Source of the DNA: a virus
Length of the DNA: 27,274 nt
Strand: one strand, 5' to 3'
Virus record (IMG/VR): IMGVR_UViG_3300024354_000067
Coordinates: 1-27,274 of that record
Part shown: one piece after another, positions 24,528-25,034 of the stretch
Layout: every line of letters begins with the position of its first letter
How positions within the stretch are numbered: the first letter of the stretch is position 1
The notes under the pieces: generated by a model
Seen by the model: the letters and a program-made list of their open reading frames with translations, nothing else
Told to the model about the DNA's origin: nothing
Databases searched by the model: none
Translations under genes and position numbers: made by a program

Positions 24528-25034
24528 ATGAGGATTGATAATTTAGGTATTCCAGTATATTCAGCCAAAGACATCTTTGATTTAATTTACCAAGGTAAAT
24601 TGGATGTCTTGCCTAATATTTTGGCAGAGCCTGACGATACAGACGTTAAGCAGTTTAATCTACATACTGAATCTGTAAAAATACGAGAATATCAAGAACC
24701 ACAACTTTCTAAAACAGAGTTTGATTCCTTAATGCAGAGTAATTGGAATATGCCTGAGGAATACAAACAAATGGACATTGAAGGGTTCCTTGTTAACGAA
24801 TGTCCTAAAGAAAACTACCAAAGACTAATAGAAGAATTACAAGAGTATAGAGAAAGAAATATGCTGGATCTACTACGCTGGCTAAAATACTTTGTAGATA
24901 CTTGTCGTAAGGAAGGTATAGTTTGGGGTGTAGGAAGAGGAAGTAGCGTAGCCAGTTATGTACTATACTTAATTGGTGTACATAAAATTGACAGTTTGAA
25001 ATATAATTTAGACTGGCGCGAATTCCTGAGATAA
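24528..25034 (+). CDS. Stand-alone DnaE-type polymerase palm fragment (168 aa)
   Basis: Residues ~93-168 resemble the start of the palm domain of bacterial DNA polymerase III alpha (DnaE): YQRLIEELQEYRERNMLDLL, WLKYFVDTCRKEG, then VWGVGRGSSVASYVLYLIG, IDSLKYNLDWREFLR. Compare the DnaE signature [34 protein letters not shown]. In DnaE the catalytic PDxDxD motif follows about ten residues later; here the protein ends exactly before it, so it cannot polymerise by itself. The first 90 residues (GIPVYSAKDIFDLIYQGKLD and an acidic stretch) are not DnaE-like; no PHP motif is visible. It sits upstream of gp31 and gp44 genes. Possible roles are nucleotide or DNA binding, or interference with the host polymerase; all inferred. 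Start ATG 24528 has no ribosome site. Confidence 0.8.
   Translation: MRIDNLGIPVYSAKDIFDLIYQGKLDVLPNILAEPDDTDVKQFNLHTESVKIREYQEPQLSKTEFDSLMQSNWNMPEEYKQMDIEGFLVNECPKENYQRLIEELQEYRERNMLDLLRWLKYFVDTCRKEGIVWGVGRGSSVASYVLYLIGVHKIDSLKYNLDWREFLR

Follow-up and report, generated by a model that had tools for sequence, protein, structure and literature searches.

A 168-residue phage protein that stops before the DnaE catalytic aspartates is probably the N-terminal half of a split minimal DNA polymerase III alpha

The window (the whole 27,274-nucleotide stretch of viral DNA analysed here) carries on its plus strand, at 24528-25034, an ATG-initiated gene for a 168-aa protein of family phrog_11127. We call its product the N half, after our favoured reading of it as the N half of a split minimal DNA polymerase III alpha. 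The open reading frame holds VWGVGRGSSVASYVLYLIG and IDSLKYNLDWREFLR and then stops, its C-terminal letters being KYNLDWREFLR. The stop (the REFLR-stop end occupies 25017-25034) falls just after EFLR, at about residue 393 of E. coli DnaE, which goes on after FL with NPERVS and its catalytic motif, MPDFDVDF (399-406). Pfam PF07733 (DNA_pol3_alpha) matched N-half residues 85-167 over its cut-off (E 4.7e-12, profile positions 12-94 of 260), and the PHROG profile of phrog_11127 (171 positions) matched residues 3-168 (E 9.4e-43), which places the N-half match far above chance. In a search of the PDB, a profile made from 57 N-half members also hit residues 320-392 of E. coli DnaE (E 0.0018). These matches agree with the original prediction, which described a real gene at this position ending just before the DnaE catalytic aspartates. 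The aspartates are absent from the 168-aa protein and present in a putative C-half partner encoded elsewhere in the same phage lineage. Several phage records already annotate the N-half protein as DNA polymerase III alpha.

The N half has two parts. Residues 61-168 (24708-25031) form the first palm part, equivalent to E. coli DnaE 271-393 (model pLDDT 92.1). They include a GRGS motif at residues 136-139 (24933-24944), which aligns with E. coli G361-S364 and is invariant in our N-half alignment; we take it to be the NTP-binding loop. No match was found for residues 1-60 (24528-24707): the Pol III rows of the fold search begin at residue 59-69, and the Pfam match begins at 85. The earlier description of the N-terminal 90 residues as unrelated to DnaE was therefore too strong, because the model aligns to Pol III alpha from about residue 61.

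The genes around the N half are largely constant. Upstream lies a 77-aa gene of phrog_15348 (24285-24518, plus strand), which we regard as a neighbour and not as part of the enzyme; a related ORF was found near 77 of 80 N-half loci. Directly downstream are a 74-aa gene of phrog_14844 (25061-25285, plus strand) and a gene for a co-chaperonin of the Cpn10/gp31 type (25289-25633, plus strand; PF00166, E 5e-8), each present near 80 of 80 N-half loci (about 2 kb on both sides). The phrog_14844 protein is longer in relatives than in the window. Next come a MazG-like pyrophosphohydrolase (25630-26001, plus strand; PF01503, E 9e-11), found near 28 of 45 N-half loci when about 5 kb on both sides was considered, one or two small ORFs, and a gp44-like clamp-loader subunit that is open at the window end (26512-27273, plus strand). 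The gp44-like ORF matched PF00004 (AAA, E 1e-15) and PF13177 (E 2e-12), with Gp44_lid below cut-off, and the gp44 family occurred near all 45 loci within the same 5 kb. The predicted gp31/mazG/gp44 neighbourhood was thus recovered by Pfam. Seven of ten named phages have an annotated clamp-loader gene no more than 3-4 kb from the N half.

The N half was also predicted to have its own promoter, but the case for one is weak. The sequence TTGACA-17-TAAAAT at 24493-24521 scores 11 of 12, but promoter-like sites are no more numerous in the region than expected by chance (10, compared with 9.4 +/- 3.1 in shuffles). The second hexamer of this sigma-70-like site ends 6 nt before the N-half ATG, and a transcript from it would have almost no leader.

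Other genes of the window include a UvdE-family UV endonuclease (7672-8799; PF03851, E 4e-41) and a 6-pyruvoyl tetrahydropterin synthase/QueD-like protein (6336-6893; PF01242, E 2e-27). A single ORF of 3102 aa occupies 9361-18669, and near it, at 19274-20503, is a 409-aa ORF with an Mtd N-terminal domain (PF18454). UvdE-type UV endonuclease genes are also reported in subgroup 2.2 phages, in the available part of the work by Iyer et al. (2021; PMC7824862).

The N half has many relatives, and those extracted share one end point. IMG/VR yielded 273 relatives, the best 80 of which were kept; all 80 matched residues 1-168. Together with two further scans and ten named phages, they gave 120 extracted N-half ORFs (80 distinct). 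Every one of the 120 has a stop codon and a GRGS motif, and every one ends 1-3 residues past its last F[LF]. PD.D or D.D.D was found in the last 20 residues of none of them. The N half of phage Slicko01, which lies outside this set, has GRGS and ends in FAELSKEM. Seven IMG/VR contigs with different sample numbers encode this 168-aa protein letter for letter, stop included; with such recurrence and one constant end in 120 of 120 ORFs, an assembly error is ruled out. The fragment is conserved in other T4-like phages and cut at the same point. The question raised beforehand, whether relatives continue into a full polymerase, has a divided answer: none of the 120 does so in place, but the continuation exists as a separate gene.

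The sequence of the N half also appears to be maintained by selection. Alignments were thinned at 88% identity, which left 57 N halves and 66 C halves. Invariant columns in the N-half alignment include W73, Y79, R99, E103, G134, G136, R137, G138, S139, H152, Y159 and F166. The median dN/dS was 0.084 for the N half (27 of 37 pairs with estimable dS) and 0.090 for the C half (199 of 334 pairs); these ratios are rough, as they come from a simple counting method and dS is high in many pairs. The constant end, the seven identical contigs and the low median dN/dS argue that the N half is a whole, selected gene.

The missing aspartates are encoded by a second, distant gene. We searched 26 N-half-bearing records with PF17657 (fingers) and obtained 12 mostly weak matches in 11 records, two of them over cut-off. 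All but one of these matches lie within ORFs of about 190-217 aa that bear DIDID at or near their start. Four such ORFs were scanned; all belong to phrog_11778, and part of PF17657 was over cut-off in one of the four. For the C half of the window's own lineage the PF17657 match was below cut-off. All 10 named phage records hold a member of phrog_11778, as do 4 of 16 IMG/VR records; none of the 12 contigs without one is longer than 212 kb. No C half lies within the 27-kb window. In a 270,181-bp contig that encodes an N half identical to the window's, both genes are on the minus strand, the N half at 191421-191924 and the C half at about 6813-7388, some 184 kb apart; across the compared records the distance ranged from about 11 to 224 kb.

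Searches of the genomes with PF07733 and PF17657 returned the two halves and three weak matches that we take as chance. The latter, in loci L126 (a terminase by eye), L102 and L103, were dropped. An IMG/VR scan for the C half found at least 556 relatives, of which the best 80 were kept. When 147 loci that matched the N profile and 145 that matched the C profile were compared, there was no ORF that matched both, so these loci offer no fusion that would speak for an interaction of the halves. Family B polymerase (PF00136) was detected in 24 of the 26 N-half records (E 5e-30 in the 270,181-bp contig), and the two without it are contigs of 91 and 66 kb. The DnaE piece does therefore sit alongside a family B polymerase, as had been predicted.

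The two halves occur together in phage genomes. A search of 50,697 phage records with the N half of RaK2 (E 1e-5) gave 60 records; for the C half there were 63 among the matches listed, a set made by joining two listings of 60. All 60 N-half records also hold the C half by BLAST. Of the three further C-half records, PP728206 (unverified, 109 kb) gave no N half by profile, and the 141-kb Alishewanella phages Slicko01 (OQ508956) and Slickus01 (OQ508957) gave a diverged N half by profile (E 9e-17 and 8e-17). Where 60 of 157 phage-record matches were listed, 50 were within the N-half set and 10 were weak (about 26% identity) and came from Bacillus and Enterococcus phages. The C half was present in 17 of 17 IMG/VR records above 220 kb that were fetched by the N half, several of which are the named phages again. 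The 60 records represent far fewer independent events, because these are related phages, at least seven of which appear twice (GenBank and RefSeq).

Some records had one half only. The C half was missing from 12 of 16 IMG/VR records and from 4 of 14 records of a further set, all of them contigs of 212 kb or less, and the N half from 6 of 9 records (five IMG/VR contigs fetched by the C half, and PP728206), again of 212 kb or less. With contigs of this size, such records do not prove absence, but neither do they count as support.

In Slicko01, which at 141 kb is not a jumbo phage, the diverged N half (7021-7533 of locus L302, minus) and the C half (3968-4579 of locus L297, plus) lie on one strand about 11 kb apart. 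An annotated clamp-loader gene is located between them, and both halves are annotated as hypothetical.

The C half retains the active-site residues of the C family. Its commonest start, read from the nearest start codon, is MPDIDIDF (77 of the 122 starts tallied); the others are mostly (R/K)TDIDID or (V/I)PDIDID, and some C halves, such as that of RaK2, begin some 15-18 residues before the catalytic motif. Invariant columns among the 66 aligned C halves include D3, D5, D7, K66, D68, R135 and P136, and also F164, K165, K166 and H168. By motif, residues of the C half correspond to E. coli D401, D403, D405, K553 and D555 and to the fingers FNKSH stretch with H760. PMC3919608 calls D401, D403 and D555 absolutely conserved throughout the C family, and PMC8485763 gives H760 of E. 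coli DnaE as the proposed steric gate that excludes ribonucleotides.

These motifs are nearly constant in 127 C-half ORFs: DxDxD was present in 126, K.D in 125 and K[ASP]H in 124. The misses fall in four sequences: L277, L278 and L287 are truncated at a contig end, and L218 carries R in place of K in FKK.H; L287 nonetheless retains K.D. The catalytic aspartates are present in every C half that is not cut by a contig end. Under both strict patterns 116 of the 127 passed. The misses were L148, L178, L218, L268, L277, L279, L280, L283, L284, L287 and L288; two are contig-end cuts, and most of the others have variants such as DIDLD, KLDLI and KIDCL. Beyond the aspartates the C half is strongly reduced. 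From D7 to H34 (H511 by motif) there are 27 positions, compared with 106 from D405 to H511 in E. coli, which indicates that the thumb region is largely gone. The fingers too have lost length, in the stretch from the RP motif to the KSH helix.

Structure models place the two halves side by side on DnaE. AlphaFold models of the N and C halves each had a mean pLDDT of 92.1. Residues 61-168 of the N-half model correspond to E. coli DnaE 271-393, with a best Z of 11.7 over 101 residues (5lew); 16 Pol III/PolC entries scored Z 7.4-11.7 and the next row 2.1. This is the comparison with the DnaE palm that the original prediction had called for, and it found a match. Residues 1-190 of the C-half model correspond to E. 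coli 400-784, with a best Z of 9.6 over 188 residues (3e0d); 14 Pol III/PolC entries scored at least 5.8 and the next row 2.7. The two E. coli ranges, 271-393 and 400-784, adjoin without overlap, an order that the sequence profiles reproduce. Foldseek returned weak E-values (at best 1.1e-3 for C and 5.8e-3 for N), and the aligner cautions that helical folds, to which the mostly helical N half belongs, can reach Z values below about 13 by chance; the structural claim thus rests on the gap in Z to unrelated rows and on the agreement with sequence. Since Pol III/PolC entries make up most of the fold lists, nothing follows from the lack of other folds in them. Pfam recognizes only part of PF07733 in the N half, and the C half spans E. 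coli 400-784 with 192 aa. Within the two halves there is no PHP domain, complete thumb, HhH or C-terminal domain of a full-length DnaE or PolC.

The C half has constant neighbours of its own. At IMG/VR loci (about 2 kb on both sides), phrog_11058 and phrog_11637 were near 80 of 81 C halves and phrog_11758 near 72 of 81. In five of eight named phages (RaK2, Atu_ph07, MIJ3, SCTP-2 and Slicko01) the annotation places primase or helicase genes close to the C half. With clamp-loader genes near the N half, this suggests that both halves tend to lie in replication-gene surroundings. Proteins of phrog_11058 are about 240 aa long (for example L129:1923-2654 on the minus strand; also in L290, L291, L292, L293 and L296). 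A C2HC-like motif was found near the start of 128 of 134 such ORFs, with Pfam zinc-finger matches below cut-off; a narrower zinc-finger pattern that disallows H-x-C matched 17 of 107. Upstream of the C half, ORFs in a similar position matched phrog_11058 in six of eight cases, XacN1 and SCTP-2 being the exceptions, and in several loci small genes separate phrog_11058 from the C half. From gene positions in Slicko01, phrog_11758 had been a candidate for gp62, the clamp-loader subunit, and phrog_11058 for a gene in the place of regA. Both were rejected after profile comparison with T4 gp62 and T4 RegA (probability <1% in each case).

Several other readings of the gene have to be weighed. The loss of most of the thumb and of the middle of the fingers (the 27 positions against 106), in genomes that already have a family B polymerase of their own, would also suit a nucleotidyltransferase of Pol beta-like fold. 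The two halves would then work without a template and add nucleotides to RNA ends, a protein or a small molecule. We consider this rather improbable. The fingers residues F164, K165, K166 and H168 are invariant in the aligned C halves (L218, outside that set, has R for the second K), and a kept fingers helix with the proposed steric-gate histidine fits dNTP selection; moreover, both genes lie near replication genes, the clamp loader in 7 of 10 cases for N and primase or helicase in 5 of 8 for C. A decoy or inhibitor of host Pol III, acting for instance by binding to the palm of host DnaE or to partners of that protein, might be suggested by an N half that on its own is a palm fragment without aspartates. 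This is very unlikely: an aspartate-bearing gene accompanies it in 60 of 60 phage records and makes a decoy unnecessary, and a decoy would have no obvious need for the GRGS that 120 of 120 N halves keep.

The two remaining explanations have still less to recommend them. Split DnaE inteins exist in cyanobacteria (cited in the part of PMC3919608 available), and the phage halves might likewise be parts of one DnaE that an intein or intron interrupts and splicing restores. The N halves end 1-3 residues past their motif, however, and Met stands directly before PDIDIDF in 77 of 122 C halves, which leaves no room for intein halves; the genes are moreover many kilobases apart, so that we give splicing hardly any weight. 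That the protein stops inside a known domain could indicate a relic, a local frameshift or an assembly error of a once complete dnaE. We attach next to no probability to this, because the stop is the same in seven contigs with an identical protein, the end is constant in all 120 N halves, the gene is conserved across 57 thinned sequences, and a median dN/dS of 0.084, even with dS high in many pairs, points to purifying selection and contradicts the suggestion of a relic. With the aspartates kept in the second gene, phrog_11778, the original readings of the N half as decoy, inhibitor, adaptor or relic are unsupported.

Based on these results, we propose that the N-half gene probably encodes the N-terminal subunit of a two-chain, minimal, thumb-poor C-family (Pol III alpha) DNA polymerase, whose activity is predicted. 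In our model, the N half would supply the first palm part, and its GRGS loop should hold the triphosphate of the incoming nucleotide. The C half, a protein of about 190-215 aa from a distant gene that starts at or some residues before P/T-DIDID, would supply the metal-binding aspartates D401, D403 and D555 together with K553. It would also add shortened fingers, in which the helix bearing the proposed steric-gate residue (histidine H760 in E. coli) is retained, for sugar checking. We infer that the halves bind each other and that the complex makes DNA: they would fold jointly and restore a single active site, the break falling in the connecting loop; neither half would have a full site alone.

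The assembled enzyme would have no PHP, little of the thumb, no middle part of the fingers and nothing of the C-terminal region. Given these missing parts, it would most likely be distributive or dependent on a partner. With the thumb and a large part of the fingers gone, its binding of primer-template is not assured, and a poor hold on DNA is to be expected with no PHP, little thumb and no C-terminal parts, unless a partner helps. On its position and motif, phrog_11058 is a candidate for such a DNA-holding partner. As a third, zinc-finger-like subunit it could complete the nearly thumbless two-chain polymerase and supply the DNA grip of the lost thumb, a suggestion that we make tentatively and think unlikely. 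If this were true, the complex would be a separate DNA polymerase architecture, and one not limited to jumbo phages, as the two 141-kb phages show. We further suggest that the two-chain enzyme would work beside the T4-like family B replicase, in repair, gap filling or the synthesis of one strand.

If the pair is active, it would be, to our knowledge, the smallest C-family DNA polymerase, with an active site that exists only when two chains meet. It would also show which parts of bacterial replicases are dispensable, provide a simple system for the catalytic core, and raise the question of why phages with a family B replicase retain a second polymerase under strong selection. A seemingly 'broken' gene is explained as one half of a likely working pair, and the claim can be tested directly with two small proteins. 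We found no laboratory test of the split phage polymerase in the open-access literature.

Our proposal belongs with a system that has already been described. Iyer et al. (2021) described group 2.2 jumbo phages that have, besides a family B polymerase, a 'minimal' Pol III alpha in split form; in the available part of the paper (PMC7824862), a stand-alone NTP-binding N protein and a Mg2+- and template-binding C protein are encoded by distant genes, and a two-protein enzyme is proposed. The original prediction mentioned similar fragments in other marine T4-like phages with no function assigned. Relatives in other T4-like phages do exist, but a function as a split polymerase had been proposed in 2021, as the same part of the paper states. 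By their description there, phrog_11127 and phrog_11778 are presumably these two proteins. Like the group 2.2 N protein, the window protein has the NTP motif, matches phrog_11127 over its full length and ends before the aspartates, and the 270,181-bp contig with an identical N half has the distant aspartate gene and a family B polymerase. We found no feature that distinguishes the window gene from that system. It is a further member of the split polymerase already described, from an additional lineage in environmental contigs, and is not new in kind. Beyond what the available part of PMC7824862 contains, our analysis adds the exact break point, the reduced thumb, the kept steric-gate histidine, the constant neighbours and the two 141-kb phages.

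The phage pair can also be compared with cellular polymerases. Like DnaE and PolC, it has the palm fold, the GRGS loop, D401, D403 and D555 (in the partner) and the fingers histidine. Unlike them, it consists of two chains with about 360 residues in total, compared with 1160 in E. coli, has no PHP or C-terminal domains, and has a reduced thumb and reduced fingers. In cyanobacteria with a split-intein DnaE, the protein is made from two separate genes. The break in the phage proteins differs in that it leaves no room for intein parts, and the phage product should therefore stay as two chains.
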